This document shows positions 3,818-45,472 of a DNA stretch of 64,000 nt, in pieces. Source of the stretch: an uncultured Kordia sp. GTDB lineage: Bacteria > Bacteroidota > Bacteroidia > Flavobacteriales > Flavobacteriaceae. The translations under genes and the position numbers were made by a program. The stretch lies in the NCBI RefSeq assembly GCF_947489565.1, contig NZ_CANLEA010000003.1, positions 124,001 through 188,000 of the forward strand, written 5' to 3'. Each line of letters starts with the position of its first letter. Position 1 is the stretch's first letter. The notes under the pieces were generated by a model. The model did no database searches and had not been told where the DNA came from. It was given only the letters and a program-made list of their open reading frames with translations.

Positions 3818-3821
3818 GTAG

Positions 3822-4022
3822 ATTCTAATCAAAAAAGATGAATTAAAAGATATTGCTACAACAATTTCTAAAAATAATATTGGATTGTCATACATCAATC
3901 CGAATACAAAGAAAAGTTCGGAATCTTTAAGCAATCTAAAATCTAACTTTAAAGAAGCGATTCAAAAAATCAACGTACTGATTTTAATCGTGAATAATAA
4001 ATCAACAATTCAATTACAATAA
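3822..4022 (+). pseudogene. Start-less open frame, possible gene remnant
   Basis: Between the SulP stop codon and the carbonic anhydrase start there is a frame of 66 sense codons ending with TAA, preceded directly by a TAG stop and containing no methionine. The translation is lysine- and serine-rich and looks protein-like (for example ATTISKNNIGLSYINPNTKK). It has no ATG, GTG or TTG at a usable position. It may be the 3' end of a decayed gene, a gene using ATT at 3822, or chance. No family is recognised. Confidence 0.25.
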
Positions 4023-4041
4023 CACTATAATTAATTATATA

Positions 4042-4668
4042 ATGAAAGCACAAACAAAAGAAACACAGGCAGTAATGACTCCAGATTCTTCAATCCAAGC
4101 ATTGAAAGACGGAAACCAACGCTTTGTAGAAAATACGCAGGTTTCTCGTGACTTACTAGATCAAGTTTCAGACACAAGCACAGGACAATATCCATTTGCG
4201 ACAGTTTTAAGTTGTATAGATTCACGCGTTTCCTCTGAGCTTATTTTTGATCAAGGAATTGGTGATATTTTTAGTGTTCGTATTGCTGGAAACTTCGTAA
4301 ATGAAGATATTTTAGGAAGCATGGAATTTGCTTGTAAACTTGCAGGAACAAAAGTAATCGTAGTTTTAGGACATACAGCATGTGGAGCTGTAAAAGGTGC
4401 TTGTGATCATGCTAGACTTGGAAATTTAACAGCATTGATCAACAAAATAGAACCTGCAGTAGAAGCTGTAACTGAGCCAACAGACGAAAGCTTACGTAAT
4501 TCAAAAAATATTGAATTTGTAAACAATGTTGCGGCTAAAAACGTAGAAATGACAATCGAAAACATTCGCCAGCAAAGTCCTGTATTAGCAGAATTAGAGC
4601 GTGATGGAGACATTAAAATTGTAGGCGGAATGTACGATATCAGTAATGGTAAAGTAACTTTCTACTAG
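4042..4668 (+). CDS. Beta-class carbonic anhydrase
   Basis: A 208-residue cytoplasmic enzyme that interconverts CO2 and bicarbonate. The beta-class zinc site is complete: Cys58 with the Asp60/Arg62 dyad in the motif CIDSR, and His111 and Cys114 in HTACG. The length is normal for the class. It lies between a SulP anion transporter and a DUF2490 outer-membrane protein, whose ATG starts 1 bp after this stop codon. Together they look like a bicarbonate uptake and conversion unit under the upstream TetR regulator. The physiological direction is inferred. Confidence 0.95.
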   Translation: MKAQTKETQAVMTPDSSIQALKDGNQRFVENTQVSRDLLDQVSDTSTGQYPFATVLSCIDSRVSSELIFDQGIGDIFSVRIAGNFVNEDILGSMEFACKLAGTKVIVVLGHTACGAVKGACDHARLGNLTALINKIEPAVEAVTEPTDESLRNSKNIEFVNNVAAKNVEMTIENIRQQSPVLAELERDGDIKIVGGMYDISNGKVTFY

Positions 4669-30351: not shown

Positions 30352-31122
30352 CTAAAATGGTTGTTTTTCACTTAAGTATTTCCAATAGCGTTTTGGAACA
30401 TGTCGCACATGCAACAACATATTTTTCCTGGATTCTATATTGGTGCTTTTGAAGTAGTTTTGCCATAATTCTTGAAATTCCAATTCTTCTTTGGCGAAAA
30501 AATCTTCGGACGTTTTTGTAAAATCAAAGTGTTTCGGAAATTCCATCACAATGGTCTCTACATGTTCTAAATTGTAATGCAATCCATAATTTCGTTGGAT
30601 ATCATAAATCACCCATTTCTGGTCTGCATACCGCGATTTAAAATGCTTCGCTAACAATGGTAATACATTAAAATCTGGTGCTACATTCGCAAAATACAAA
30701 CCATCTTTGGTCAGTTTGAAACGCACAAAAGCTTCCATTCTATGCTTCTCGCGTCCAACGCTTCTCGTAATTTTTGATAGCTTTAAAACGGTACTGTTTG
30801 AAAAGTCTTTTTCTATATTTTCTGTAGTGTCAAACACTTGCCGAATGTAGTCTAACAATGTATTTTCAATTGAATCCATTTCGCTTAGAAACGAATAATA
30901 CAATTGATTTCGACCGTAAGATGTTAATTTCTTTTGAAGTCCTTTCCAAACACGATCCGCATGTGTTTTGTTGGTAATTATTTCCTCAGTCGCTCCAAAA
31001 AAAGAACCTTGCACATTGCTTTCACGCTGAATATCTACTTGCGATAATTTTTCTTCATATACTTTAAAAACAGTACTTAGAAAACCTTCAAACGTACCAT
31101 CATAACTTAAAACTTTCTGCAT
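30352..31122 (-). CDS. TIGR03915 family putative DNA metabolism protein
   Basis: A 256-residue protein with YDGTFEGFLSTVFKVYEEKL at the N-terminus and LEHVETIVMEFPKHFDF near residue 200, the marks of the TIGR03915 family that always accompanies a SplB-like radical SAM protein. It begins on the last base of the preceding radical SAM gene (TAATG overlap), so the pair is co-translated. It is probably a partner or nucleic-acid-binding subunit in DNA repair. The exact lesion is unknown. Confidence 0.88.
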   Translation of the reverse strand: MQKVLSYDGTFEGFLSTVFKVYEEKLSQVDIQRESNVQGSFFGATEEIITNKTHADRVWKGLQKKLTSYGRNQLYYSFLSEMDSIENTLLDYIRQVFDTTENIEKDFSNSTVLKLSKITRSVGREKHRMEAFVRFKLTKDGLYFANVAPDFNVLPLLAKHFKSRYADQKWVIYDIQRNYGLHYNLEHVETIVMEFPKHFDFTKTSEDFFAKEELEFQELWQNYFKSTNIESRKNMLLHVRHVPKRYWKYLSEKQPF

Positions 31123-32384
31123 TATCCAAATAGATTTAACTGATTACTTGTAGCATTTCTGAACTTACTTTTTGAGTTTTGAAGAATGAGTCCTTTAATT
31201 TTATCAGGTGCTAAATCGCGGCGTTCAAAATCGTTCGAATTACAGATCAAAAAATATTTTGCTCTATTGAGCGCAACACCTAAACGTTTTAAATGTTCCC
31301 AATTGAGTTGACGAAATTTTCGAGCATTCAATATTTTGTACACAGACGTCATTCCCAAACCTGGAACGCGCGCCAACATACGTTTATTAGCACGATTTAC
31401 GTCTACGGGAAACTCATGAATATTCCGCAAAGCCCATGATAGTTTTGGATCAATATCTAAGTCCAAATGTTGATGTGTTTCATTGACAATTTCGTGAATA
31501 TGAAAACCGTAGAAGCGCATTAACCAATCGGTTTGATACAATCTATTTTCACGTAACATCGGAACTTCGCTTCCTATTTGTGGCAAACGACTGTCATAAC
31601 TTATAGGCACATATCCTGAATAATACACACGTTTTAGATTGAACTTTTTATAGAAAAAATTAGACGCAGTCATAATTTGATAATCATTTTCTCCACTGGC
31701 GCCAATAATCATCTGCGTACTTTGTCCTGCTGGTGCATATTTTGGTGTGCTTTTGATAATTTTCTTCTCAGCCTTGTATTGAATAATTTCCTGTGTCACC
31801 TTTTTCATAGGTTTGATAAAATCTTCACGTTTTTTATCAGGAGCAAGTCGCTTCAGACCTTCACGAGTTGGGATTTCAATATTAACACTCAATCGGTCTG
31901 CATACAATCCTGCTTCGCGCATTAATTCGTCTGAAGCACCTGGAATTGATTTTAGGTGAATATATCCATTAAAGTTTTCTTCCAAACGCAATCTCTTCGC
32001 GACAGCCACTAAGCGTTCCATCGTATAATCTGCATTTTTGAAAATCCCTGAACTCAAAAACAAGCCTTCGATATAATTTCTGCGGTAAAAATTAATGGTT
32101 AAATCCACAACTTCCTGAACTTTGAAAGCTGCGCGTTTGATATCATTACTTTTTCGCGTGACACAATAAGCACAATCAAAAATGCAATGATTTGTCAATA
32201 GAATTTTCAACAAAGAAACACAGCGACCATCTTCGGTATATGTATGACAAATTCCCATACCTTTTGCATCGCCTAAACCTTTGTTTTTATTGGTTCGATC
32301 GCTTCCACTAGATGCACAGGAAACATCATACTTTGCAGCATCTGCTAGAATGCTAAGTTTTTCTTTGATACGTTCAAAAGACAT
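31122..32384 (-). CDS. SplB-like radical SAM DNA-repair protein (TIGR03916)
   Basis: A 420-residue radical SAM enzyme. The iron-sulfur cluster motif is Cys67-x3-Cys71-x2-Cys74 in NHCIFDCAYC. Further cysteines lie in the N-terminal part (Cys23, Cys46, Cys55). A helix-hairpin-helix near residues 340-365 (ARVPGLGMTSVYKILNARKF) suggests DNA binding. The family is described as a putative DNA modification/repair radical SAM protein and is paired with the TIGR03915 protein that overlaps it by one base. The substrate lesion is not established. Confidence 0.9.
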   Translation of the reverse strand: MSFERIKEKLSILADAAKYDVSCASSGSDRTNKNKGLGDAKGMGICHTYTEDGRCVSLLKILLTNHCIFDCAYCVTRKSNDIKRAAFKVQEVVDLTINFYRRNYIEGLFLSSGIFKNADYTMERLVAVAKRLRLEENFNGYIHLKSIPGASDELMREAGLYADRLSVNIEIPTREGLKRLAPDKKREDFIKPMKKVTQEIIQYKAEKKIIKSTPKYAPAGQSTQMIIGASGENDYQIMTASNFFYKKFNLKRVYYSGYVPISYDSRLPQIGSEVPMLRENRLYQTDWLMRFYGFHIHEIVNETHQHLDLDIDPKLSWALRNIHEFPVDVNRANKRMLARVPGLGMTSVYKILNARKFRQLNWEHLKRLGVALNRAKYFLICNSNDFERRDLAPDKIKGLILQNSKSKFRNATSNQLNLFG

Positions 32385-32590
32385 AAAATGATTTCTTTTA
32401 TTGATGGTAAATACGCGTTGATCAGGTTTTTACAAATATAACATTTTACAGATTTAAATTAAAACATATTTTAAATAATTCTGTTAAATGTTTTAAAATT
32501 ATTTTTATATACAATTGAAATTCAACTGTTACGGAATAATTATTGCTACCATTAACATCATATTACATGAACATTTTACCATTTTTATTT

Positions 32591-33136
32591 ATGAAAAAAA
32601 TTACACTTTTATGCTTGTTTCTCACAAGCTTGTCATTCACAGCAATTGCTTCAAATCAAAGTAGCATTCAAAAAGCACAAAAATCCACTAACGAACGTAC
32701 ATTTTGCGAAGGCTGGAAAGATGGATATGAAGTAGGTTTTAGTTATTACAATCTAACGAATCGCAAAGTGAAACCTATTTTTATTACGCCTATTTGTCCT
32801 ATAGCACGTATCGGACAAGATTCGTATCAAGATGGATATAATCGCGGGTTAATTAAAGGGAAAAAAGATTTTAAAAAGCGCAATCCATCCATAAAAGATG
32901 ATGATAGTCATCCATTGGCGATTCCTGTAGTTGATAACGATGATAAACGTTCGTATTGTGACGGCTGGGAAGATGGTTACAGAGCTGGATATACTTACGA
33001 GAGTTCCGTCAAAAGAAGAATAAAACCCATTTTTATCACACCCATATGTCCTATCGCTAAAATTGGTGCTGACACTTACCAAGATGGCTACAATAGAGGA
33101 CTGCGTAAAGGCTTGGAAGATTTTAAAAAACGATAG
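32591..33136 (+). CDS. Secreted protein with two copies of a 61-residue cysteine domain
   Basis: A 181-residue protein. Two more upstream ATG/TTA-type starts are open, but the ATG at 32591 gives a clean signal peptide (MKKITLLCLFLTSLSFTAIA). The mature part has two 61-residue repeats, 37-97 and 121-181, at an offset of exactly 84. Each has CxGWxDGY, KPIFITPICPIAxIG and YQDGYNRG, with Cys39/Cys69 and Cys123/Cys153 at equal positions. The two cysteines could form a disulfide. No known family is recognised. It is convergent with the GG-leader peptide gene. Confidence 0.78.
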   Translation: MKKITLLCLFLTSLSFTAIASNQSSIQKAQKSTNERTFCEGWKDGYEVGFSYYNLTNRKVKPIFITPICPIARIGQDSYQDGYNRGLIKGKKDFKKRNPSIKDDDSHPLAIPVVDNDDKRSYCDGWEDGYRAGYTYESSVKRRIKPIFITPICPIAKIGADTYQDGYNRGLRKGLEDFKKR

Positions 33137-33149
33137 TTCTAAAAAGAAA

Positions 33150-33170
33150 AAGCGGACATAAAGTCCGCTT
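33150..33170 (-). terminator. Terminator of the GG-leader peptide gene
   Basis: AAGCGGAC (33150-33157) pairs with GTCCGCTT (33163-33170) over a 5-base loop. On the minus strand it runs into TTTTTCTTTTT, which makes a good terminator 9 bp after the peptide gene's stop codon. Confidence 0.75.
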
Positions 33171-33178
33171 CCTATTCG

Positions 33179-33346
33179 TTATAAAAATATACATATTCCA
33201 TTTACACACCTGGAAGCACGGTCGATAAAAAAGCAATCAGAACGACGTACACATCCTATAGGAAATCGTATTCCTCCATTGATATTTCCCTGTTCTTTTT
33301 TGTTTAATTCTTTTGCTCCTTCTAAGTTTAAAATTGATTTTAACAT
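33179..33346 (-). CDS. Double-glycine leader peptide (bacteriocin/signal-peptide precursor-like)
   Basis: A 55-residue precursor read from ATG 33346. The leader MLKSILNLEGAKELNKKEQG is followed by NINGG, so the double glycine ends at residue 25. This is the typical leader of Bacteroidota peptides exported and trimmed by a peptidase-containing (C39) ABC transporter. The 30-residue mature part starts IRFPIGCVRR and holds four cysteines (32, 38, 47, 52), which could make two disulfides or be modified. It has its own minus-strand terminator. No transporter, immunity or maturation gene lies nearby, so these would be elsewhere. The gene is too short for most gene finders. Confidence 0.78.
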   Translation of the reverse strand: MLKSILNLEGAKELNKKEQGNINGGIRFPIGCVRRSDCFFIDRASRCVNGICIFL

Positions 33347-33454
33347 AATCTAAGTTTTTGGTTATACCGTAAATTATTAAATATAATTTTGATACGTTTA
33401 CGGGAATCCCATATTTAACATTGACCAATTTTAGGGCACCGATTTTACTACAAA

Positions 33455-33480
33455 AAAGCTTCACATTCCTGCGAAGCTTT
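33455..33480 (-). terminator. Terminator-like hairpin without a clear gene
   Basis: AAAGCTTC (33455-33462) pairs with GAAGCTTT (33473-33480); on the minus strand TTTTTT follows. No convincing gene to its right on the minus strand was found, so it may be a relic or may protect the peptide gene from read-through. Confidence 0.5.
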
Positions 33481-34031
33481 CGTGTATGAGCACAACTCCT
33501 AATTTACCTGAAATAAAACTTTTTATTACTGAGATCCGAAGTAAAAAAGGAGTTGCTAATCATTCATAAATCATATTTGACATGCATAATCTTCAAACAT
33601 ATTTAACAGTGAAATTAACTATGAATTGTAGTTATAAAAAGGAGTTGATATCGTATTTATTTAATTTCGAGTAGTAAAAAACTGGTCCCTTTCGAGTATT
33701 TAGAATGCTTTACACCATTTTTCAATCTATTTTGAAAATGTGTGTATTTTCATGAATATAATGAAATATCATACAATAATAATCATGAAAAAAAGTACGA
33801 TACACTTCTCAAACTTTATATTTTCTTCACAATTAGAATCTATCTTAACCATAAGATAAATAATTCATAACTCTTAATATATTTTACAATTAAAAGTAAG
33901 TATTTACACTTGTATTTGAAAAATAGGGGTTTCCACTTCTATAAAGAAACAGAAAGAAACCTATGTTTACATAACATAAGAATAAAAACTCAACCACCTG
34001 TAAATGAATTAAATACATAATATCAGCAGTC

Positions 34032-34039
34032 TATTTTTG
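34032..34039 (+). promoter_or_regulatory. Candidate -7 element of the decarboxylase operon
   Basis: TATTTTTG fits TAnnTTTG. No TTG-type -33 element lies at the right distance upstream, so an activator may be needed. The first ATG is 73 bp downstream. Confidence 0.35.
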
Positions 34040-34111
34040 AAAGTGATTAAAATTGGAAGAAGTATTCATAAAATAACTGTGAATTGTATTTAAAGAGTCA
34101 CTTACAAAAGA

Positions 34112-35677
34112 ATGAATTCACCATTTGGTAACCTAAACAACAAACCAATGTACAGCCTAGAGAATCCTGCCCAACCTCAGCTAGTAGAAGAGCTTGATCC
34201 TTCTTCAAATTTCCAAGATGCATTTGACGCTCAAATTTTAAAAAAAGCTACTTCAGTCGCCATTGAAAAACTTAAAGACAATATTTCAAATTCGAATCCT
34301 AGAGGACTGAAATTGCTATCGCCTGATAAATTAATGACACTCGTAGAAGCATTTGCAAAAAGAAACTCAACATCTTCAGCATTATTAGATACACAACTTT
34401 TAGAAGAAATTATTGATTTGTATACTGCGACCGGAATTCCTGTGTATTCCACAGGTTATATGGGACGACAGTTTTCTGGTGTCATTCCAATTACAGGACT
34501 TACCGATTTATTGACTTCTATGATGAGTCAGCCTTCATCCTTTTACGAATCTGCACAACTTCCTAGCATGGTAGAAAAAGTAATTGCAAAAGAATTTGGC
34601 GATTTACTCGGATGGAAACACGGAACTTACGATATGGTCACTACCTCTGGCGGATCCTTGGCAAATATTACTGCGATTTTAACTGCCAGAAATAGCAAAA
34701 TACCTGATTTTACAAATTTCAAAATCAAAAGAAAAACCATTCCCGCAATTGCCGTAAGTGCCGATGTGCATTATTCTATTAAAAGAGCTGTGGGAATTTT
34801 GGGAATTGGTGAAAATCAAATTATTCCATTACCCATTAACGACAAAGGGCAAATTTGCATGTCGCAGGCAGAAAATACTTTGCTAGAAGCTGAAAATAAT
34901 GGTTACCATGTGTTTTGTTTGGTCGCTACTGCAGGAACAACTGTCGTTGGTGCTATTGATCCATTGGAAGAATTGACTGCATTATGCAAACAAAAAGACT
35001 ATTGGTTTCATATCGATGGCGCGCATGGCGGAAGCTTTTTAGTTTCAGACACCTTACGAAGTCGTCTCAAAGGAATTGAATTGGCAGATTCTTTTGCCTT
35101 AGATGCGCACAAAACTATGTTTTTACCTGCTTCTTGCACACTTTTATTTTATAAAGATATTGCTTCGCCCAAGAAGACTTTTTATAAAGAAGCCAGTTAT
35201 ATTTTTGAAAACGAATCCAACAATTTTGATGGCGGAGAAAAAAGCTTCGAATGTACCAAACGGCCTATGATTATGAATCTTTGGATTCCGTGGGTTTTAT
35301 ATGGGAAAGAAATCTTCGCTCAAAAATTAGAAGCCTTATGTAATATTGCAATGCAAGCGTATAATGAACTTACCATAGCTTCCGATTTTGAGTGTTTACA
35401 CCAACCACAAACAAATATTTTATGTTTTCGATATCAGTCTGAAGATGCGCAGTATATGGAAGGTTTTGACTTTCAAATTGCAATTCGAAATAAAATAAAA
35501 GAAGAAGGTAAATTTTTCATTTCTAAAGTAGAAGTTCAAGGAAAAACGGCTTTACGCGTGGTTTTTATGAATCATGAAATTAATATCGAACATTTTAGAA
35601 GTCTCTTAGACGAAATCCGAAGCATCGGTCAAAAAATAGCATCCAACAACAACATAGAACAAGCGATCACAATCTAA
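34112..35677 (+). CDS. PLP-dependent group II decarboxylase
   Basis: A 521-residue cytoplasmic enzyme of the aspartate/glutamate/aromatic decarboxylase fold. Visible contacts with pyridoxal phosphate are TSGGSLAN (178-185), His220 in ADVHYSIKRA that stacks on the ring, Asp302 in HIDGAHGG, and Lys334 in LDAHKTMF that forms the Schiff base. It would convert an amino acid to its amine; the substrate cannot be read off. It is the first gene of the operon, and the next ATG follows its stop codon with no gap. It is a paralogue of the N-terminal half of the fused protein at 37244 (both share GYMGRQFS and SQPSSFYE-type blocks). Confidence 0.88.
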   Translation: MNSPFGNLNNKPMYSLENPAQPQLVEELDPSSNFQDAFDAQILKKATSVAIEKLKDNISNSNPRGLKLLSPDKLMTLVEAFAKRNSTSSALLDTQLLEEIIDLYTATGIPVYSTGYMGRQFSGVIPITGLTDLLTSMMSQPSSFYESAQLPSMVEKVIAKEFGDLLGWKHGTYDMVTTSGGSLANITAILTARNSKIPDFTNFKIKRKTIPAIAVSADVHYSIKRAVGILGIGENQIIPLPINDKGQICMSQAENTLLEAENNGYHVFCLVATAGTTVVGAIDPLEELTALCKQKDYWFHIDGAHGGSFLVSDTLRSRLKGIELADSFALDAHKTMFLPASCTLLFYKDIASPKKTFYKEASYIFENESNNFDGGEKSFECTKRPMIMNLWIPWVLYGKEIFAQKLEALCNIAMQAYNELTIASDFECLHQPQTNILCFRYQSEDAQYMEGFDFQIAIRNKIKEEGKFFISKVEVQGKTALRVVFMNHEINIEHFRSLLDEIRSIGQKIASNNNIEQAITI

Positions 35678-37240
35678 ATGGAAACAACTACACCTACACA
35701 AAGCAAGCAGGAAACGTTTATAAACCAACTATTTCCAAATGCCGAACTGACGCCAACATCCATAGATCAGGTAGTACAATTACCTCGATTCCTTAGTAAA
35801 ATTGAGCAATGTGAGCAGCATTTCGGAATTCCCTTTGATGCCTTAGCTTATGAAACACAACAAGAAATTATAGGAACACGATTGCACCAAATCGTAAACA
35901 TTCTAATGTTAAATCCGTTGTGGAAAGCGCGTTTTGAAGAACACGGAATTACAGAAGCGCCAAAAACCTTTGAAGATTGGCAACGTATTCCTATTACGGA
36001 TAAAGAAACAGCTATCAACTTTTATTCGGAAGAACGAAAAGGAATGGTGGTTTCGTTAGAATATGGCGGTTTTGAAATTGTTGCCAGTGGTGGAACAAGT
36101 ACTGGAAAACCTTCTGAAACAGTATATTCTTTAGAAGAATTAGACGATACGTATCATCTTTCAGGGAAATTTATGGGCGATCATTTATTACCTAGATTTT
36201 TTTCCGAAGAAGACGGAATGCCGATTATATCTACCACATACGCAGATTTTCAATTGTGGAGTAGCGGAACGATGGTTGGTGGCGTTTTGCAGCGAATTCC
36301 AAATACGAATTACATCGCGGCTGGTCCAATTGATAAAAAGGTTTACGAATTAATGATGAGTTATGAAGGTCCAAAAGTAATTTTGGGATATATCGAATCT
36401 ATTTGTCAGTTGTATGATAATGGTTTGGATTTAGATCAAGAAGCAAAAGACAGCTTGCGTTTGGCATTATATTGTAGCGGATTGCTGTCTAAAAAGAAAC
36501 AGAAAGAATTAAAAACACTCTATCCAAATCTTGATATTCTAAGTTATTTTTCTGCCACGCAAGCAGAAGCCATTGCCATTCAGTTTGATCCGAATGATGA
36601 TGCTTTAACCACGGTTCCGGCGTTACATTTTATAGAAGTTGTTGACGAAAATGGAAAATGGGTAGAAGAAGGTGAAGAAGGCGAATTGGTAATTACACGA
36701 TTGCACTGTAACAAAGCGCCTATTATTCGTTATAAATTAGGTGATAGAGCTATCAGGTTACCGATACGAGAAGAAGAAAACTTAAAAACATTTCAGTTTG
36801 AATTTAGAGGACGAAGCGGAGATGTAATTCACATAGAAGATCATCAATTTTCAGCATTGAATACCTTTGATTACGTGAAGTATCAGTTGAATAATTATCA
36901 CAACATCGATTTGGATGATATTGCTTCAGAAACACAAATTACACATTACAGAGATCAAAAATTACTCTCCATTGTCATTGCAACTGATTATTCTGGTTAT
37001 TACGAATCTGTATTACAGACAACTTTAGGAACAGAAGGTGTTCAATATTTGGTAAAAGATGCACTTATGAAATCAATGGGATTGTACAGTAAATCATCAA
37101 TCAAAGAAAATTCGCTAGACCAAATAGGATACACATTCAAAATTACATTCGTAAACACACATTCCGATCAAATTTACAAAACGTCACTTGGAAAAATTCC
37201 ATTCTACAGAGATGTCCTAGACTCAACATCAAAATCGTAA
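35678..37240 (+). CDS. PaaK/CoF-synthetase-type adenylate-forming ligase
   Basis: A 520-residue enzyme of the phenylacetate-CoA ligase/F390-synthetase type. The ATP loop is ASGGTSTGKPSETV (136-149). SYFSATQAEA is the A5-like motif, RYKLGDRAIRL the A7/A8 region, and FRGRSGDVIH the hinge. Lys506 in KTSLGKIPF is placed like the catalytic A10 lysine of the family. It would activate a carboxylic acid with ATP and pass it to CoA, an amine or another acceptor. Its ATG abuts the decarboxylase stop codon, so the two are co-translated and probably work in one pathway. Confidence 0.85.
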   Translation: METTTPTQSKQETFINQLFPNAELTPTSIDQVVQLPRFLSKIEQCEQHFGIPFDALAYETQQEIIGTRLHQIVNILMLNPLWKARFEEHGITEAPKTFEDWQRIPITDKETAINFYSEERKGMVVSLEYGGFEIVASGGTSTGKPSETVYSLEELDDTYHLSGKFMGDHLLPRFFSEEDGMPIISTTYADFQLWSSGTMVGGVLQRIPNTNYIAAGPIDKKVYELMMSYEGPKVILGYIESICQLYDNGLDLDQEAKDSLRLALYCSGLLSKKKQKELKTLYPNLDILSYFSATQAEAIAIQFDPNDDALTTVPALHFIEVVDENGKWVEEGEEGELVITRLHCNKAPIIRYKLGDRAIRLPIREEENLKTFQFEFRGRSGDVIHIEDHQFSALNTFDYVKYQLNNYHNIDLDDIASETQITHYRDQKLLSIVIATDYSGYYESVLQTTLGTEGVQYLVKDALMKSMGLYSKSSIKENSLDQIGYTFKITFVNTHSDQIYKTSLGKIPFYRDVLDSTSKS

Positions 37241-37243
37241 GCA

Positions 37244-40200
37244 ATGGAAACCACAACCAATATAGAAATTATAGAAAATCTTATTCATGGGAATACGAAA
37301 GAACTTCCATTAGATTTTAAGAAAGTATTTGACACGAATTTGTTTGAGAAACATTCCGATATTATTGTCGATAAGCTCGAAGCATATTTGTTAGAGAGTC
37401 AGCAAACTCCAAAAGGAATTGACCTGAGAAAACCGGAAGAATTATTGGAAGAAATCCAGGATTTAATGAATTCCGAATCTTCGAACACTGAAGATACCTT
37501 GAAAAGTATTATCGATTTATATCTTCAAACAGGTGTACAAGCCAATTCGCCAGGGTACATGGGAAGACAGTTTTCTTCTGTATTTCCGTTAGCCAGCGTG
37601 TTCGATTTTATAAGTTCCATGTTAACGCAACCTTCTTCTTTTTATGAAGCCGCGCAATTGCCTAGTGTAGTTCGTGTATACATGGCAAAAGAACTGAATA
37701 AATACATCAACTATCCTGAAGATGAATTTGATATGGTCACTACTTCTGGTGGATCATTGGCAAATTTAACCGCTTTATTATCAGCCAGAAACTATTACTT
37801 TCCAGAGTTTTGGGAACAAGGAATTTTGAGTATTAAAGAAAACGAGATTCCAGCAATTGCCGTGAGTGAAGAAGCGCATTACAGCATTATTCGTACGGTA
37901 GAAATGTTAGGTTTTCATAAAGATCAAATTGTAAAATTGCCTGTCAATCAAAAACGACAAGTAGATATCAAAAAAGTACAACCTGCACTTGATCAAGCTA
38001 AAAAAGAAGGTTTTAAAGTATTTTGTATTGTTGCCAATGCTGCTACGACTGCCGTTGGTGCTTTTGATCCTATTGATGATTTGGCAGCTGCAGCTGAAAA
38101 AAACGATTGTTGGTTACATATTGATGGCGCTCATGGTGCGAGTTTTTTACTTTCAGAAAAACACCGTGGAAAATTAAAAGGCATTGAAAAAGCAGATTCA
38201 ATTACGTGGGACGCGCATAAGATGATGTTTATTCCGGGAACCTGTAGTATGCTTTTTTATAAAGACAAGCGTCGAAGCAAATTAGCGTTCAGACAGAATG
38301 CGAGTTATGTGTTTGAAAAAGAAGAAGATCAATACACAAAATATGATGGCGCTAAGAAAAATATAGAATGCACCAAACGACCTATGATTATGAATTTGTG
38401 GGGAATTTGGATGTTTTACGGACCTGAAGTTTTTCAACAGAAAATTGATCATCTCTGCGATCTTGGTCGTAAAGCATACAACGTATTAAAAGCAAATTCC
38501 CATTTTCAATCTTTACACGAACCAGAAGCAAATATGCTCTGTTTTCGATATAAACCTAAAGGTTTCGACAGTAGCAAACTCAAAGATTTCCAGTTACAAA
38601 TCCGAAATCAGATTAAAGCAAACGGTAATTTTTTCATCTCTAAAGTTAATATTGACGGAGAACCTGCATTGCGCGTGGTTTTCATGAATCACCGAATTCA
38701 AATAGACCATTTTAAAATGCTTTTAGCAGAAATTCAACAAATAGGCAATCGTATACTAAACCCAAATACCAAAGCTATGGACGTACACAATCATATCTCC
38801 ATAAAAAATACTCCAATCAACGGAGCGGCAAGCATTCAGAAAAAGACGAAAAAAAATAGTAATAGCAAAGCTTCAAAAGCAGCTGCATTTGCTAAAAAAA
38901 TTATTCCCGACACGGAGTTTTCTCCAAAAAGCATTGATGATGTAAAGAAACAACCAATGTTTTATGAGAAGATTAAAATGGTGGAAGCAGAAAAAGGAAC
39001 CAACTTTTACAAAGTAGATTTTGACACACAAGATGCTTTGGTATTGAGAAGGTTGCAACAAATGGTCAATAATCTCTTTTTAAATCCTTTTTGGAAAAAT
39101 AGATTGGAAACTGCTGGCATTACAGAAACACCGATTGATTTTGAAGCTTGGCAAAATATTCCTTTAACCGATAAAGAAACAATGACGACGGCTTTTAATG
39201 GAAAAAGAGAAGGAATGGTCGTACCCTTTAGCGATGGCGGTTTTGAAATTGTTGCCAGTGGCGGAACTACTTCTGGAATTCCATTAGAAACTGTATACGA
39301 ATTGCAAGAATTACAGGATACATATAAAATTGCAGGAGAGTTTATGGGGAAATTTATTGCGGATAAATATTTTAAAAAGAAGACTCCAAAATGGATTATT
39401 ACCACTTTAGCAGACACACAAATGTGGAGCAGTGGAACCATGGTTGGCGGTGTTTTACAAAAAATTCCAAATACAAATTTCTTAGGCGCAGGTCCATTAA
39501 ATCTTAGCGTGTACGATCATATGATGTCGTATAAAGGAGATAAACTTATTATGTCTATTTCTTCAGCAATTGCCGCTTTAGCAGATTACGGAAAAGAAAT
39601 GAGCGAAGAAAAACGAGCGAGTTTTCAATTGGCCATGTATGGAAGCGGATTGATGTCTCAACAACAAGAAACTGCGTTAAAAGAGGTGTATCCAAATGTA
39701 AAACTACTCAGCTATTTTGCAGCGACACAAGCAGAAACTATTGGACTTCAATTAGATCATAAAAGCAAAACTTTATCGGCAGTTCCGGGACTTCATTTTA
39801 TAGAAATTGTAGATGAAAACGGAAAATGGGTCAAAGAAGGTGAAGAAGGAGAATTAGTTGTGACAAGATTGCACAGTAACAAAGTTCCTAATGTTCGTTA
39901 CAAATTGGGTGACAGAGCGATTCGATTGAAAAGAAAAAACACCAAAACCTTACGAACTGACCAATTTTTATTCCAAGGACGTAGTGGAGATATCATTCAC
40001 ATTACAGATTCACACTTTTCAACAATTAAAGTAATGAATGCTTTGTTTGCTGAGTTGGACAAAATTGGAGTCGAAATTTCCAAGCAGGCTTTAGAAATTC
40101 AGTTTTTAAATGATAGAGCAAATTGTAAACTAACCTTGCTCGTTTCCACAGAAACTCCCAAAAAATTATATGAAATGGTACAGCAGCATTCAAAGGAAAA

Positions 40201-40384
40201 AATTGATGAATTATTTGTGAATTCATTAGTGCAATCCTTACCAATATTCAATGCTTGGGAATCGAACGTAGCGTATATCAAAAAAAGCAAATACGAGTTT
40301 GAATTGAAGGTTGTTGACAAAGGATCAGATGCCATATTTAGAACTCCATTAGGAAAAACTCCCTTGATTAAAGATCAATTTTAA
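37244..40384 (+). CDS. Fusion of PLP decarboxylase and PaaK/CoF-type ligase
   Basis: A 1046-residue protein. Residues 1-510 are a second decarboxylase (TSGGSLAN 168-175, His212, Asp294, Lys326 in WDAHKMMF). A linker of about 35 residues rich in Lys, Ser and Ala follows (about 515-550), and residues 550-1046 are a second ligase (ASGGTTSGIPLETV, RYKLGDRAIRL, Lys1038 in RTPLGKTPL). All key residues are kept in both halves, so it should be active in both. It starts 3 bp after the separate ligase and opens with the same METTT as that ligase. The order suggests tandem duplication of a decarboxylase-ligase pair and then fusion. No such fusion is known to me. Confidence 0.85.
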   Translation: METTTNIEIIENLIHGNTKELPLDFKKVFDTNLFEKHSDIIVDKLEAYLLESQQTPKGIDLRKPEELLEEIQDLMNSESSNTEDTLKSIIDLYLQTGVQANSPGYMGRQFSSVFPLASVFDFISSMLTQPSSFYEAAQLPSVVRVYMAKELNKYINYPEDEFDMVTTSGGSLANLTALLSARNYYFPEFWEQGILSIKENEIPAIAVSEEAHYSIIRTVEMLGFHKDQIVKLPVNQKRQVDIKKVQPALDQAKKEGFKVFCIVANAATTAVGAFDPIDDLAAAAEKNDCWLHIDGAHGASFLLSEKHRGKLKGIEKADSITWDAHKMMFIPGTCSMLFYKDKRRSKLAFRQNASYVFEKEEDQYTKYDGAKKNIECTKRPMIMNLWGIWMFYGPEVFQQKIDHLCDLGRKAYNVLKANSHFQSLHEPEANMLCFRYKPKGFDSSKLKDFQLQIRNQIKANGNFFISKVNIDGEPALRVVFMNHRIQIDHFKMLLAEIQQIGNRILNPNTKAMDVHNHISIKNTPINGAASIQKKTKKNSNSKASKAAAFAKKIIPDTEFSPKSIDDVKKQPMFYEKIKMVEAEKGTNFYKVDFDTQDALVLRRLQQMVNNLFLNPFWKNRLETAGITETPIDFEAWQNIPLTDKETMTTAFNGKREGMVVPFSDGGFEIVASGGTTSGIPLETVYELQELQDTYKIAGEFMGKFIADKYFKKKTPKWIITTLADTQMWSSGTMVGGVLQKIPNTNFLGAGPLNLSVYDHMMSYKGDKLIMSISSAIAALADYGKEMSEEKRASFQLAMYGSGLMSQQQETALKEVYPNVKLLSYFAATQAETIGLQLDHKSKTLSAVPGLHFIEIVDENGKWVKEGEEGELVVTRLHSNKVPNVRYKLGDRAIRLKRKNTKTLRTDQFLFQGRSGDIIHITDSHFSTIKVMNALFAELDKIGVEISKQALEIQFLNDRANCKLTLLVSTETPKKLYEMVQQHSKEKIDELFVNSLVQSLPIFNAWESNVAYIKKSKYEFELKVVDKGSDAIFRTPLGKTPLIKDQF

Positions 40385-40404
40385 CCATAAAAAACCTTAC
40401 CATT

Positions 40405-40818
40405 ATGCGAGAGCAAATTAATATCATGATTATGGTAGATTCTATCAAAGCTTTAGTAGATCAAAGCTTAGAAGGAAACTGCTTCATGGTGGACGATAGC
40501 TGTTTTTTTAGTAAACAGAAAGGAACGCTTTATCTGGACACACAATGCATTCCGGATCAAAAAATACATTGGACGGTAAAAGCGGTGGATGTACAAACGC
40601 CGGTTAGCATCAAACAAATTTCTTTTGAACCGTATCAAGTGTATTTTAACACTACACATGTAGACAACTTAGATGCCTTAGTTTGGAATGGAATTGTGCC
40701 ATATGTAGGCAGCAAACAAATGACTTACAAATACAAAATTGTATTACAGATTGGGAAAGGAAAGAAAAGTAGACTTGCAACGTTTACACCTTCATTAACC
40801 ATTTTACCACCTTATTAA
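40405..40818 (+). CDS. AidA/PixA-like inclusion-body protein, paralogue 1
   Basis: A 137-residue protein with NIMIMVDSIKALVDQSLEG near the start, a KGTLYLDT turn, and KIHWTVKAVD. The same core (MIMxD, then a V-Y/F-I/L-x-D strand, then S-x-x-KGT, then W) recurs in the next three genes and matches the AidA/PixA family (PF12306-type) of inclusion-body or quorum-controlled proteins as I remember it. There is no signal peptide. It begins 20 bp after the fusion gene. Confidence 0.72.
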   Translation: MREQINIMIMVDSIKALVDQSLEGNCFMVDDSCFFSKQKGTLYLDTQCIPDQKIHWTVKAVDVQTPVSIKQISFEPYQVYFNTTHVDNLDALVWNGIVPYVGSKQMTYKYKIVLQIGKGKKSRLATFTPSLTILPPY

Positions 40819-40837
40819 TCATCTAACACAACACATT

Positions 40838-41689
40838 ATGAGTCAACAATTTGGAATCATGATTATGATCGATGTGAAAGCAGCCTTAAAAACGCGAAAT
40901 CTAAAGGATCATGTATATTTAATTGACAATATGAAAGACTTTGGATCTCAAAACGAAGGAACCAATGCTTTAATCTCAAAAGTGAATGGAACTTATTGGG
41001 CAGATGGAACACAAGCTGGTGAAGAAGTAATGAATTGGCTTGCTATCGATATTAATGATATGCCTCGAACCGTACAAAAACCTTCTTATTATACCTATTT
41101 CAAAACCAAAGCCATTGAAAGTTTTTTAAAGAATCATTTGTTAGATGTCAGAGAAAAGAAGAATGACAAAAAGGATGAAAAAACGAACTATGAAATCGAA
41201 ATGACATCCGATGGTTTTAATACTATGTTTGACAAACTTCAAGACATTGCGAATGTAGCGCAAGGAGGATTGAAAACGAATACCGATTCTACTAAAAATA
41301 TTGAAACCGTGTGGCCATTAGTAAGTGTTACTGGAGAAATAGAAGGTCAAAACACAACAGATATCAAAGAAGACGATTATATAAACCTTCCTCCTATTGT
41401 GACCAATATTACGGGAGAAGCTGTGGATCTAGGTATTATTTATCCTGCGCAATATGGATCGCCGAATTTCATTACAGAAGGTTGGTATTGGTGTGCTACG
41501 GTGAATACTGCAAAGGCAGGAAAATATAGATATACAGCACATATCACGTTGTTTGATTTGGTTACCAAAGAAGGTAAAATTTCTTGGAAGCCTGTACAAA
41601 TGACGTTTGATTCGCACATATTAATTTCTAGAGATCCGATGCGAAACGGATTTACAGGAGCAGGCGATAGTTATTTACCTATTTATTAA
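40838..41689 (+). CDS. AidA/PixA-like inclusion-body protein, paralogue 2 (long form)
   Basis: A 283-residue protein, the longest of the four and closest to AidA/PixA. It has FGIMIMIDVKAALKTRNLKD at the start, NGTYWADGTQAGEEVMNWLA in the middle, and IIYPAQYGSPN and GWYWCATVNTAKAGKYRYTA near the end, with DSHILISRDPMRNGF last. An insertion of about 90 charged residues (about 105-195) separates the two halves. PixA-type proteins pile up as cytoplasmic crystals in Xenorhabdus and AidA is quorum controlled in Burkholderiales; what they do is unclear. Confidence 0.78.
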   Translation: MSQQFGIMIMIDVKAALKTRNLKDHVYLIDNMKDFGSQNEGTNALISKVNGTYWADGTQAGEEVMNWLAIDINDMPRTVQKPSYYTYFKTKAIESFLKNHLLDVREKKNDKKDEKTNYEIEMTSDGFNTMFDKLQDIANVAQGGLKTNTDSTKNIETVWPLVSVTGEIEGQNTTDIKEDDYINLPPIVTNITGEAVDLGIIYPAQYGSPNFITEGWYWCATVNTAKAGKYRYTAHITLFDLVTKEGKISWKPVQMTFDSHILISRDPMRNGFTGAGDSYLPIY

Positions 41690-41706
41690 TTTAATCAAGA
41701 AACATC

Positions 41707-42120
41707 ATGAGTTATGTAAATATAAAAGCACTTGTAGACGTTGTTGCAGTGCTCTCAAACGATCAATTGGAAGGCAATGTATACATTTTAGACACTAACA
41801 AGTTAAAAGGATCTAGCAAAGAAGGAACTATTTATTTAGAAACTGCCGTTGAAAAGAATGATATTATTCTTTGGAGTACTTACGGATTGGAAGTAGAATC
41901 GTATGTGAAAATTTGTGACATTCAGGTAAATGAAACCTATTTATCGAAACCTACGGAAGAATACTATCAAGGTACAAACATACAGTATTGGACATCGACA
42001 GTTAAGAAAGTACCAACACAAAACATTCCATACAGTATTCATTTTGAAGTTGGAAACACGACTACTCTTTTCGCTACGAAAAGTAACGGACCAAGTGTCA
42101 AATCAGTAACAAACAGCTAG
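41707..42120 (+). CDS. AidA/PixA-like inclusion-body protein, paralogue 3
   Basis: A 137-residue protein with the same core as its neighbours: IKALVDVVAVLSNDQLEGNVY, then SSKEGTIYLETAV, then DIILWSTYGLEVE. It lacks the long insertion and has the same length as paralogue 1, so these two may be short-form partners. It starts 17 bp after paralogue 2 and is followed 5 bp later by the fourth. No signal peptide is present. Confidence 0.7.
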   Translation: MSYVNIKALVDVVAVLSNDQLEGNVYILDTNKLKGSSKEGTIYLETAVEKNDIILWSTYGLEVESYVKICDIQVNETYLSKPTEEYYQGTNIQYWTSTVKKVPTQNIPYSIHFEVGNTTTLFATKSNGPSVKSVTNS

Positions 42121-42125
42121 AAATC

Positions 42126-42674
42126 ATGAGTAAAAAAGAAATACCTCAAGGAGTAGTCAATGGAATTCAATTAAATATTGTGAGTACTATTGACTATAAA
42201 AGTATTAAGCGAAGTGGATACAAATCATTGAACAATGCCGTGTTTTTGACTGATAATGCCTTTGAAAGCACTAAAAAAGGAACACCCGATTTGGAAACGG
42301 TTTGCACACAAGGACAAGTATTGAATTGGTTAGTTTTTCCTATAAATATTGATGAATTTAAAGATCCTTTTGTTTATAGTCCGACTATACGAATAAGCAA
42401 TATTGTTTTTCTTAGAGACAATGGTGAAATCTATCAGGAAAAAATCTGTGAGAACCTACATTCTTATGGTAGTTTAGAAAAAGGAAGACCGTATTTATGT
42501 CCTCCAGTATTTTTCTATTGGGCAGCGAATGTACGTGTAAATCTTCCGCCAGGACGTTATAAATATAGGCTCATTTATGAAGTAGACGATTATACTTCAC
42601 CAGCTATAAAGTACTATTTAAATTTAGATTCTGCGAGTTTGTGCGTTGTGCCTTTACAAACAAAAACCGCATAA
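42126..42674 (+). CDS. AidA/PixA-like inclusion-body protein, paralogue 4
   Basis: A 182-residue protein, more diverged. The core is still seen: IQLNIVSTIDYKSIKRSGYK, NNAVFLTDNAFESTKKGTPD, and GQVLNWLVFPINI. The C-terminal part (YWAANVRVNLPPGRYKYRLI) matches the GWYWCATVN...AGKYRYTA part of paralogue 2. It is the last gene of the operon, closed by a terminator 18 bp after its stop codon. Confidence 0.68.
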   Translation: MSKKEIPQGVVNGIQLNIVSTIDYKSIKRSGYKSLNNAVFLTDNAFESTKKGTPDLETVCTQGQVLNWLVFPINIDEFKDPFVYSPTIRISNIVFLRDNGEIYQEKICENLHSYGSLEKGRPYLCPPVFFYWAANVRVNLPPGRYKYRLIYEVDDYTSPAIKYYLNLDSASLCVVPLQTKTA

Positions 42675-42692
42675 AATTATCATATAAGAAAG

Positions 42693-42717
42693 CTTCACAG
42701 AGATGTGGAGTTTTTTT
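42693..42717 (+). terminator. Terminator of the decarboxylase-ligase-PixA operon
   Basis: CTTCACA (42693-42699) pairs with TGTGGAG (42704-42710), one G-T pair, over a GAGA loop, and is followed by seven T. It sets the 3' end of the operon starting at 34112. Confidence 0.78.
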
Positions 42718-42751
42718 GTTTTACGGCAATAATTATTTTAAAGAAAATACT

Positions 42752-42759
42752 TACTTTTG
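42752..42759 (+). promoter_or_regulatory. Candidate -7 element of the membrane-protein gene
   Basis: TACTTTTG fits TAnnTTTG and lies 33 bp before the ATG at 42793, after the terminator at 42693, so the next gene has its own promoter. Confidence 0.45.
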
Positions 42760-42792
42760 ATTATTGCTAACAAAATAGCATTTTAACAAATT

Positions 42793-43740
42793 ATGAGTAA
42801 TGATAAGTATAGTGAAGTTTATGACAAATGGATAGAACTGTATAAGTTTTCTATGTTTATAGTACTTCCAGCTGCTATCATTTGTATGGTAGTATTTAAC
42901 TTATTTTCATACGCTTACTATTCAATGCTATTTGTTTTTTTACTTGTAGGTATTTTATATTACAAGTATATTATGTTCAAAAAACAATGTGCACAATACA
43001 ATTTACCAATATTCTTTACCAACAAAAATCCTGTTTTATGGATTCGGAAATTTTCAAAAGGATCAGATATATGGAAATCACATGCATTTATAGACATTGT
43101 ATTACGACCTTGGTCAACGGTTATTACTTTAGCTGATAATAAAATTAAATATGGTGTTGAAACTAGAGTGTACAAACGAAAAATAATTGTCATCATTATA
43201 CTTCTCTTCTTATTGATTCTTTATACAATTCACTATTTCAAATCTTATGATTCTTTTGCTACGTATATCATAAGTGCTACTGTATTTATTATAATATTTG
43301 GCTACATTTATTTGAAGCAACTTACAACAAGCGGAAGTGTAACAATTTTAGAAAAAGATATTTCAAAACTAAATATCTCTGAAAGCAAAATAGCAGGAAA
43401 GCATTTTAATGGAAATGTTTTAAGAGCTCCTAGTGAAGGAAATTTATGGTGGGAAATCATTTTGAAAATATCGCCGTCAGTTTCTGCTGTTATTGTTGAC
43501 TGTGAAGATATTATTATGGAATCTGTTAGTCTCAAAAGAGAAATTCATCATTTCTTAGACACATTGGGAGCAAATCGTTTGATTCTGTTGACAAATGGAA
43601 ACGACCAAGGAAAAGTTCTTGAATTATATCCTGAGCTAAAAAACAGTCTTTTTATTAAGAAACCTAAACGTATGGGATTTCGTTATTTCTCTGCTGAATA
43701 CCGTGCTATTTCTATACAAATTGCAAAAGCTATTTTTTAA
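42793..43740 (+). CDS. Four-helix membrane protein with cytoplasmic C-terminal domain, unknown
   Basis: A 315-residue protein with hydrophobic segments at about 18-40, 42-58, 129-148 and 155-173. Between the pairs is a polar loop with WIRKFSKGSDIWKSHAFIDI and LRPWSTVITLAD. The last 130 residues are soluble, with LWWEIILKISPSVSAVIVDCED and ANRLILLTNGNDQG, which look like a Rossmann-type sheet. Membrane proteins with a 'VLxLRxF' loop and such a domain occur near effector systems, but I do not recognise the family. It is a single gene with its own -7 element, separated from the operon before it by a terminator. Confidence 0.68.
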   Translation: MSNDKYSEVYDKWIELYKFSMFIVLPAAIICMVVFNLFSYAYYSMLFVFLLVGILYYKYIMFKKQCAQYNLPIFFTNKNPVLWIRKFSKGSDIWKSHAFIDIVLRPWSTVITLADNKIKYGVETRVYKRKIIVIIILLFLLILYTIHYFKSYDSFATYIISATVFIIIFGYIYLKQLTTSGSVTILEKDISKLNISESKIAGKHFNGNVLRAPSEGNLWWEIILKISPSVSAVIVDCEDIIMESVSLKREIHHFLDTLGANRLILLTNGNDQGKVLELYPELKNSLFIKKPKRMGFRYFSAEYRAISIQIAKAIF

Positions 43741-43823: not shown

Positions 43824-45362
43824 TTAGTCTTTTACTACTTTAAAAGTTTGCGTTCCTTTATCACTTAAGGCTTTTACAATGTATAATCCTTTGGACAGAT
43901 TTTCGACATTGACTTCTGAAATAGCTGCTGATTGTAGTGATTTAACAAGTTCTCCTTGTAAACTATAAAGTTGTACTTCTGTAATACTTGTGGTATTTGT
44001 TTTGAAATATATGGTGTTTGAAGCTGGATTGGGATATGTAATTATATCCTTAGCAGTACTTACTTCATCAACAGAAAGGCTTCCATCGTACTCGAAAAAG
44101 TATGCTGAACCAGCATTTTGTATAAAATTGATATCCATACTGTCTTCATCTTCATCTGATGCGCCTACAAAACAAGTCGTACCGTCTATAGCTACTGATC
44201 GGCCAAAAAAGTCATTTGCAGCCCTTGAAGGAGCTATAATTCTTTGTTGTTCTGCCCAGATTCCATTTACATCTCTATGAAAAACGTATGCAGCACCTGC
44301 ATTACTATTTATAGATCTTGAACCACAGATAATTGCATTTCCTGAAATAGATATAGAATCTCCAAAATTAGCACTGGAAACTCTATCAGAGGCGACTAAT
44401 TTCTGTACAAATATCCATTCTCCTTGGTTATTTAATTCATAGACAAAAGCGGCTCCGTTATTAAATCCTGGATTCATATCGTTGGCATCCGTATCATCTC
44501 CAAAATTGGCTAGTACTAAATAATTCGTGTCTATAACAACTTCATTAGCAAATAAATCATCTTCATCTCTTGAAAAAGGGTTTACAATTTTTTGTATTTC
44601 CTCCCATACACCAGAATTATTTCGTTTAAAAACATAAGCTGCTCCTTCATCTGTATCAATTGCATTATTAATATCTTCTAGTAATGCTCCAACCACAATG
44701 TGATCTCCAGAAATGGCAACCGCTTCTCCAAAATCATCGCCATCATCTCCATCAGAAGGTACTAAGCGTTGAATTTCGGCCCAAATCCCATTGGTACCAC
44801 GCTCATACACATATATAGCTCCCGTGGTTGGTGTAGTGATATCTCCAGTTCGTTCACTTTGTGAACTAACTACAATATAATTTCCATCAATCGCAACGTT
44901 TCTTCCGAATAGGTTTGCTGAAGAAGTTGAAGTAGTAGTTAATATCTGTACTTCCTGCCAAACTCCATTGGAATCACGTTCAAAAATATAAGCGTTATCA
45001 TTATCAAATTTACCTACAACTGCGGTATCTCCAGAAATGCCTACTGAAAATCCAAAAAACTCTCCTGCTACCAATCTATCTGAAGGAACTATCTTTTGAG
45101 TTTCTATCCAATCACCCAAAGCATTTTTTTCAAAAAAGTAAATAGAACCTGCATCATTAATAAAGTTCATATTATTTTCATCTGTATCATCTGCAGGGAC
45201 TCCTACTATAGCATAATTTCCTGAAATTCCTGTAGACCATCCAAAACTATCAGTTTCAGATCGATCGGAAGCTACTATTTTCTGCGTAAAATCCCAATTC
45301 TGAGCAATAAGATTTATTGGGATTATAAATAAAATAACCCAAAAATATGTGGTTGGTTTCAT
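43824..45362 (-). CDS. FG-GAP repeat protein with type IX secretion tail
   Basis: A 512-residue surface or secreted protein. The start ATG at 45362 gives a signal peptide of about 20 residues (FWVILFIIPINLIA). At least seven FG-GAP-like beta-propeller repeats follow, each with a 'FGxSVAISGNxxVVGA' strand (for example FGEAVAISGDHIVVGAL). The C-terminal 75 residues form a Por-type sorting domain (TYPNPASNTIYFKTN, GLYIVKALSDKGTQTFKVV). It would cross the outer membrane by the type IX system and could be a binding protein. It is downstream of the tail-fibre-like gene on the same strand, 110 bp away, but its Sec signal sets it apart. Confidence 0.9.
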   Translation of the reverse strand: MKPTTYFWVILFIIPINLIAQNWDFTQKIVASDRSETDSFGWSTGISGNYAIVGVPADDTDENNMNFINDAGSIYFFEKNALGDWIETQKIVPSDRLVAGEFFGFSVGISGDTAVVGKFDNDNAYIFERDSNGVWQEVQILTTTSTSSANLFGRNVAIDGNYIVVSSQSERTGDITTPTTGAIYVYERGTNGIWAEIQRLVPSDGDDGDDFGEAVAISGDHIVVGALLEDINNAIDTDEGAAYVFKRNNSGVWEEIQKIVNPFSRDEDDLFANEVVIDTNYLVLANFGDDTDANDMNPGFNNGAAFVYELNNQGEWIFVQKLVASDRVSSANFGDSISISGNAIICGSRSINSNAGAAYVFHRDVNGIWAEQQRIIAPSRAANDFFGRSVAIDGTTCFVGASDEDEDSMDINFIQNAGSAYFFEYDGSLSVDEVSTAKDIITYPNPASNTIYFKTNTTSITEVQLYSLQGELVKSLQSAAISEVNVENLSKGLYIVKALSDKGTQTFKVVKD

Positions 45363-45472
45363 GGTTAATCTTTTAAAAAGAGCACTTTTAATAATCATGT
45401 AAATGTATGTACAAAAATTCAAGTTCACATGAAACTATAAGAAAATGCTATATTTTCATATAAAAGTAAGCA

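Follow-up and report, generated by a model that had tools for sequence, protein, structure and literature searches.

PixA, AidA, MakC and MakD are well-known names without a known function. PixA proteins are stationary-phase inclusion proteins, and a Burkholderia PixA protein is a dimer that has been modelled as a jelly roll, according to the available portion of PMC9060813. MakC and MakD are described in the accessible part of PMC11484084 as homodimers and as cytosolic accessory proteins of unknown function. The locus considered here ties what appears to be the same fold to two enzymes whose chemistry can be read. It lies in a stretch of 64,000 nucleotides from an uncultured Kordia sp. (contig NZ_CANLEA010000003.1, positions 124,001 to 188,000; hereafter the window), where an operon at 34112–42674 encodes two decarboxylases (D), two ligases (L) and four PixA/Mak-like proteins (P1 to P4). 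Comparison with other genomes establishes beyond reasonable doubt that six of these genes, in the order D-L-P1-P2-P3-P4, form a real cassette, whose members share inheritance and loss and keep one gene order from phylum to phylum.

The operon consists of seven plus-strand open reading frames (ORFs) separated by gaps of 0, 3, 20, 19, 17 and 5 bp. D1 (521 aa, 34112–35677) and L1 (520 aa, 35678–37240) are followed by a fused D2-L2 protein of 1046 aa (37244–40384), in which D2 occupies approximately residues 1–525 and L2 residues 541–1046, and then by P1 (137 aa, 40405–40818), P2 (283 aa, 40838–41689), P3 (137 aa, 41707–42120) and P4 (182 aa, 42126–42674). A terminator-like hairpin follows on the same strand at 42684–42719, its 3' arm entering a U tract. 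Its folding energy of −16.6 kcal/mol (z −6.6) was equalled by none of 200 shuffles, and it is not among the calls of a simple terminator scan. The sequence-only reading of this DNA had described seven genes with gaps of 0–20 bp, a fused paralogue of 1046 residues and a closing terminator, all of which the coordinates and the hairpin bear out.

A ligase alignment scan of 84,980 species genomes yielded 79 loci for comparison. The order D-L-P1-P2-P3-P4 on one strand is found in 77 of these 79, which is not an unbiased rate, since a locus had to contain one of two exact peptide patterns and only the 80 best of 89 were retained; in three of the 77 (L036, L048 and L078) D is present as a fragment only. 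The two exceptions are L084, where the contig ends inside L, and L111 from Commensalibacter, which has D and L. By record title, 44 loci belong to Actinomycetota, 13 to Cyanobacteriota, 11 to Pseudomonadota, eight to Bacteroidota and one each to Acidobacteriota and Chloroflexota, and the last comes from a metagenome bin titled Aminicenantes. Seven matches lie on plasmids, and the three that were opened, all rhizobial, encode D, L, P1 to P4 and then a cysteine hydrolase; their ligase and P genes are labelled just "hypothetical" in these three annotated records. The distances of the six genes correlate pairwise at 0.83–0.96 over 70 loci, values that none of 300 permutations reached for any of the 15 pairs and that partly reflect common host phylogeny.

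Several individual loci deserve mention. The Candidatus Aminicenantes locus (L039:1876–8776) falls among cyanobacteria in the ligase tree, as would follow from transfer or from a misbinned contig. In a Symploca bin (L036:57–2939) a complete ligase is preceded by a D piece and a 3' piece of a ligase, which look like the remains of a second pair. The Commensalibacter melissae locus (L111:8428–11494) contains D, L and a hydrolase, its genome has no P4-like match, and its ligase forms the longest branch of the tree. One of the three rhizobial plasmids (L117, L118 and L127) is typed as conjugative, one as mobilizable and one as non-mobilizable.

Reciprocal counts of genomes provide a fairer test than the 77 of 79, with each sample including the carrier genome at its centre. 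In the actinobacterial family of an Actinomadura carrier, P4 occurs in seven of 120 genomes, and L and D occur in the same seven. D scores 765–795 bits in these seven and the next decarboxylase 295; admitting lower-scoring decarboxylases raises D to 24 of the 120 at E 1e-60. P4 and L share the same four of 120 genomes in a cyanobacterial order. Among 296 Bacteroidota genomes both L and P4 occur in one, the window's own, and among 385 alphaproteobacterial genomes P4 occurs in one, the known carrier at the centre of that sample. Furthermore, 35 carrier genomes, drawn from those of the 79 loci, were searched in full, and in 34 of them P-like matches are present and confined to the cassette. Independent occurrence of these genes elsewhere, which the sequence-only reading had named as the outcome that would speak against it, is thus not the pattern found.

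The two decarboxylases belong to the group II enzymes that depend on pyridoxal phosphate (PLP). Both match Pfam PF00282 (D1, E 1.5e-51 and 175.7 bits; the fused protein, E 3.5e-55 and 187.7 bits; cut-off 27), they carry the PLP lysine, stacking histidine, aspartate and loop tyrosine of the group, and D1 and D2 are 46% identical. After removal of three D fragments and one L fragment, the alignment of cassette members shows K326, H212, D294, R477, Q109 and Y355 invariant in all 81 D rows. The best profile alignments of D are to GAD67, GAD65, GADL1 and CSAD; diaminobutyrate (DABA) and aromatic decarboxylases rank below these, except for 8zpi, which falls between GADL1 and CSAD. In the alignment, Q109, R477 and Y355 correspond to GAD67 Gln190, Arg567 and Tyr434, respectively (2okj numbering, whose constant offset of 92 puts Gln190 and Arg567 in their proper places). 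Gln190 and Arg567 of GAD67 hold the carboxylate of γ-aminobutyric acid, according to the accessible part of PMC11357613, and this pair, expected of an acidic amino acid decarboxylase, is present in 81 of 81 D rows. Because these three invariant residues fall on GAD67 sites, the D product probably retains a second carboxylate.

D1 differs by a three-residue deletion late in the active-site loop, beyond Y355, which is common to the four flavobacterial cassettes. A second tyrosine late in the loop is absent from D1 and from 17 of the 81 D rows. Nothing on the site was found in the available portion of PMC7447512. Since GAD67 Tyr434 aligns with Y355, which every row keeps, the alignment gives no sign that D1 is crippled.

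The ligases are more remote from described families. They score 15.9 and 13.6 bits with Pfam AMP-binding, under its cut-off of 29.9, approximately 45 bits with the best NCBIfam models, whose cut-offs are 300–520, and 33 and 35 bits with the PaaK phenylacetate-CoA ligase model TIGR02155, whose cut-off is 646. L1 and L2 are about 45% identical. Nevertheless, S137, G138, G139, T140, E297, G355, D356, R379 and D382 are invariant in all 84 L rows, and K506 is kept in all 83 rows that reach its position. These residues, which we take to be the nucleotide loop, acidic motif, arginine and C-terminal lysine, identify L as an ANL adenylating enzyme. The active sites of D and L are complete, and for the residues checked the earlier statement that no copy has lost its PLP or ATP site residues is correct. 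L1 and L2 are adenylating ligases and only distant relatives of PaaK. Because L is so distant from PaaK, its acceptor cannot be read from the sequence.

The four P proteins are related to each other, with profile comparisons reaching 98.3–99.9% probability in all four pairs compared, out of six possible. No Pfam family matched P1 to P4 at E 0.1, or five P proteins from four other loci at E 0.01, so that none belongs to PixA/AidA as Pfam models it (PF12306), and scores of 51, 42, 61 and 35 bits for P1 to P4 stay below the NCBIfam MakCD (NF049870) cut-off of 110. The kinship appears in the predicted structures of P4 and P2, which match solved MakC/MakD and PixA structures best. The P4 model (predicted local distance difference test score, pLDDT, 85) aligns with PixA 4lzk at E 1.6e-7 and the P2 model (pLDDT 74) at E 1.9e-4, and both models have the PixA/AidA fold. 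The four AidA/PixA-like genes of the sequence-only reading are therefore sound as to fold, for P4 and P2, and miss the families as Pfam and MakCD define them. A plain filing of P1 to P4 under PixA/AidA or MakCD was rejected for these scores. A phage origin was rejected for P4 only, which matches nothing among 50,697 phage records.

The residues that are invariant differ from one P protein to the next, and for this reason P1 to P4 are not interchangeable copies. P4 is the best conserved and holds a cysteine in 76 of 78 rows; P2 carries a long variable insertion that is partly helical in its model. An NW pair and a YWA-type block are common to these two, whose distances correlate best (0.963). 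No lysine or cysteine conserved in common among P1, P2 and P3 was found in the alignment. By analogy, a mixed assembly of P1 to P4 would be the natural expectation and not a result.

The duplication and fusion in the window belong to a flavobacterial version of the cassette. Another flavobacterium (G029, the source of L033) and two Tenacibaculum loci (L034 and L035) have D1, L1, D2, L2 and P1 to P4 with D2 and L2 separate. The fusion is found only in the window, as no ORF in the 79 loci carries both D and L matches. In the ligase tree L2 groups with the single copies of other Bacteroidota, while L1 is a long branch outside them; D1 is likewise divergent, with a weak placement, and all trees are FastTree trees or distances only. 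D2-L2 is thus the core copy, here joined, and D1-L1 an extra flavobacterial pair. The operon had been proposed as one gene set, which stands insofar as it is a functional unit and not a chance grouping, with the amendment that the core has a single D and a single L beside the four P genes; the duplicated pair and the fusion came in with the flavobacterial version.

The cassette is also present or absent as one block. None of ten same-genus genomes has a match to the gene set, and in one of them (G004, locus L119) the window's flanks lie 74 bp apart where the window has approximately 9.0 kb (33682–42711, plus strand) holding the whole cassette. Positions 520–3539 of L119 correspond to 30352–33681 of the window and positions 3614–4224 to 42712–43324; no D, L or P matches occur in this flank region. 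The window intervals 33561–33800 and 42601–42800 share no repeat of at least 10 bp. Seven of eight same-genus regions share the left flank and not both flanks, so that G004 offers the one clean empty site.

Further enzymes accompany the cassette elsewhere. A cysteine hydrolase of the isochorismatase superfamily, whose members cleave amides, lies near it in 24–25 of the 79 loci and 3' of P4 in the three rhizobial plasmids; among its relatives of solved structure are biuret hydrolase, RutB and nicotinamidase. L038 and L039 have an aminotransferase between L and P1, and L041 has a member of the same cluster. A GNAT acetyltransferase lies downstream in six cyanobacterial loci and a SnoaL-like protein downstream in three of the loci that were read. 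None of these accessory genes is among the ORFs of the window operon, and a search of the whole window for the hydrolase found none (best E 7.5). The recurrent neighbours include no conserved carrier-protein gene.

The best reading of the cassette, to which we give rather less than an even chance, is that an omega-amino acid made by D is activated by L at the carboxylate it still has, with P1 to P4 as a hetero-oligomer in the service of this pathway. D would strip the alpha-carboxylate from a small acidic amino acid, such as aspartate, glutamate or a sulfur analogue, and L would adenylate the carboxylate left on the resulting omega-amino acid and hand the product to an acceptor, either coenzyme A or an amine. 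That L acts on the D product is suggested by the pairing of a D product that would bear an acid with an enzyme that activates acids, the two enzymes being fused in one case, and the fusion of D2 to L2 further suggests that the product passes directly from one to the other. P1 to P4, as four long-separated jelly-roll-like paralogues that are always co-encoded, would most likely come together in a mixed assembly, either to hold the enzymes or to sequester the product. The cysteine hydrolase, in about a third of cassettes, and the acetyltransferase or aminotransferase, in a few, may trim or decorate the product, and the duplicated flavobacterial D1-L1 pair may have diverged, perhaps for a second substrate.

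Some observations weigh against this reading. The activities and product of D and L, and any assembly or inclusions of P1 to P4, are inferred from genes, alignments and models. The correspondence of Q109 and R477 with GAD67 comes from alignment only, and DABA decarboxylases, which are inactive on acidic amino acids, also match D. The profile of the L family reaches only 54.7 bits with PaaK, the linked gene distances owe something to the hosts' shared descent, and the Commensalibacter locus means that D-L can exist without P, since it holds D, L and a hydrolase and no P. A different division of labour, already proposed in the sequence-only reading, is that D supplies an amine and that L joins it as an amide to a separate carboxylic acid after activating the latter; this is unlikely but would fit the constant adjacency of D and L, the hydrolase family with its relatives that cleave amides and ureides, and the six loci whose acetyltransferase could act on an amine. 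The D residues speak for a product that probably has an acid of its own for L, and no conserved gene among the recurrent neighbours would supply a second acid. In a further variant, quite improbable, the P proteins themselves are the substrates and receive, on one of their residues, a small acid that D and L produce and L attaches; the obligate link of L with P, the absence of a free carrier protein from the set and the nearly constant P4 cysteine could all be explained in this way, although no conserved lysine or cysteine is shared by P1, P2 and P3.

The P proteins can also be placed at the centre, with P1 to P4 building an intracellular storage or density body as in Xenorhabdus and D-L tuning it or being its cargo. 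The occurrence of PixA in stationary-phase inclusions (PMC9060813, as far as its accessible text goes) and the PixA 4lzk fold of the P4 and P2 models favour such a body. It is nonetheless improbable, as the nearest solved relatives are MakC and MakD, cytosolic accessory proteins (PMC11484084), and four retained paralogues with different invariant residues point to distinct roles. An acid or osmotic stress system, in which D consumes protons like bacterial Gad and L recycles the product, has the GAD-like character of D in its favour; the clustering of flanking ORFs shows no antiporter among recurrent neighbours and the distribution is sporadic (7/120, 4/120 and 1/296), which makes it very unlikely. 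Chance clustering of unrelated genes, for which nothing was found, has practically no probability and is rejected, because 77 of 79 loci have the same order and co-occurrence is reciprocal. The omega-amino acid pathway served by P1 to P4 thus remains the tentative choice, and a stronger form of it, in which a defined hetero-oligomer of the four jelly-roll proteins organises the decarboxylase-ligase pathway and keeps hold of its product throughout the wide range of the six-gene set, is somewhat unlikely.

Beyond the cassette, the window continues with genes of other kinds. Directly 3' of it, on the outer side of the block absent from G004, a 315-aa plus-strand ORF (42793–43740) has no matches in Pfam or NCBIfam. 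On the minus strand follow an FG-GAP repeat protein carrying a sorting domain for type IX secretion (Por_Secre_tail; 43824–45428), a 2707-aa protein in which Invasin_D3 and Big_1 domains are repeated (46226–54349) and, after it on the same strand, a 2456-aa ORF (54362–61732) without a Pfam match at E 0.001.

If a defined hetero-oligomer does organise this chemistry, the cassette would represent a new type of small-molecule factory, built on a protein scaffold, and the first enzymatic context for the PixA/AidA/Mak fold. The function of that fold is now testable because the P genes co-occur obligately, across phyla, with two readable enzymes, and the natural D2-L2 fusion gives a handle on the order of steps. 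A conserved gene set exposed in Streptomyces, Actinomadura, bloom-forming cyanobacteria and rhizobial plasmids would imply a metabolite that is still unread. No description of the cassette or of such a pathway was found in open-licence papers, in agreement with the sequence-only reading, which knew of no described pathway with this gene set. The set is rated as new because, among the families tested, it fits only the broad definitions of group II decarboxylase, ANL enzyme and PixA/Mak fold; its parts are known folds, and its function is putative. The AidA-like protein of Jeongeupia in the accessible text of PMC10455584 could not be linked to a cassette.

A comparison with the described systems shows what is shared and what sets the cassette apart. 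The acidic amino acid decarboxylases (GAD65/67, GADL1, CSAD and bacterial PanP) are the nearest sequence relatives of D, which keeps their catalytic and distal-carboxylate residues. D in contrast is far under the PanP cut-off (TIGR03799; the two copies score 170 and 167 bits against 606), always lies beside L and has its own ECTKRP and GRQFS blocks. L has in common with the PaaK-type ANL ligases the adenylation motifs and the C-terminal lysine, and its best solved relative is 4r1l; it differs in scoring far under the PaaK and FlxY cut-offs, in being approximately 80 residues longer than 4r1l and in its obligate partnership with D and P. The PixA/AidA inclusion-body family (PF12306; 4lzk and 4pib) shares its fold with the P4 and P2 models, whereas the P proteins of the window and of the four other loci lack any Pfam match. 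In the literature consulted PixA and AidA come one or two at a time, whereas the cassette has four fixed paralogues and two enzymes. Closest to P in solved sequence and fold are MakC and MakD of the Vibrio makDCBAE operon (8rqy and 6tct). No mak toxin genes stand in the window operon, whose other genes are the two decarboxylases and two ligases, and no search was aimed at makABE. The Mak system, as the accessible part of PMC11484084 presents it, combines two such proteins with a pore-forming toxin; the cassette instead combines four, all below the MakCD cut-off, with a decarboxylase and a ligase.

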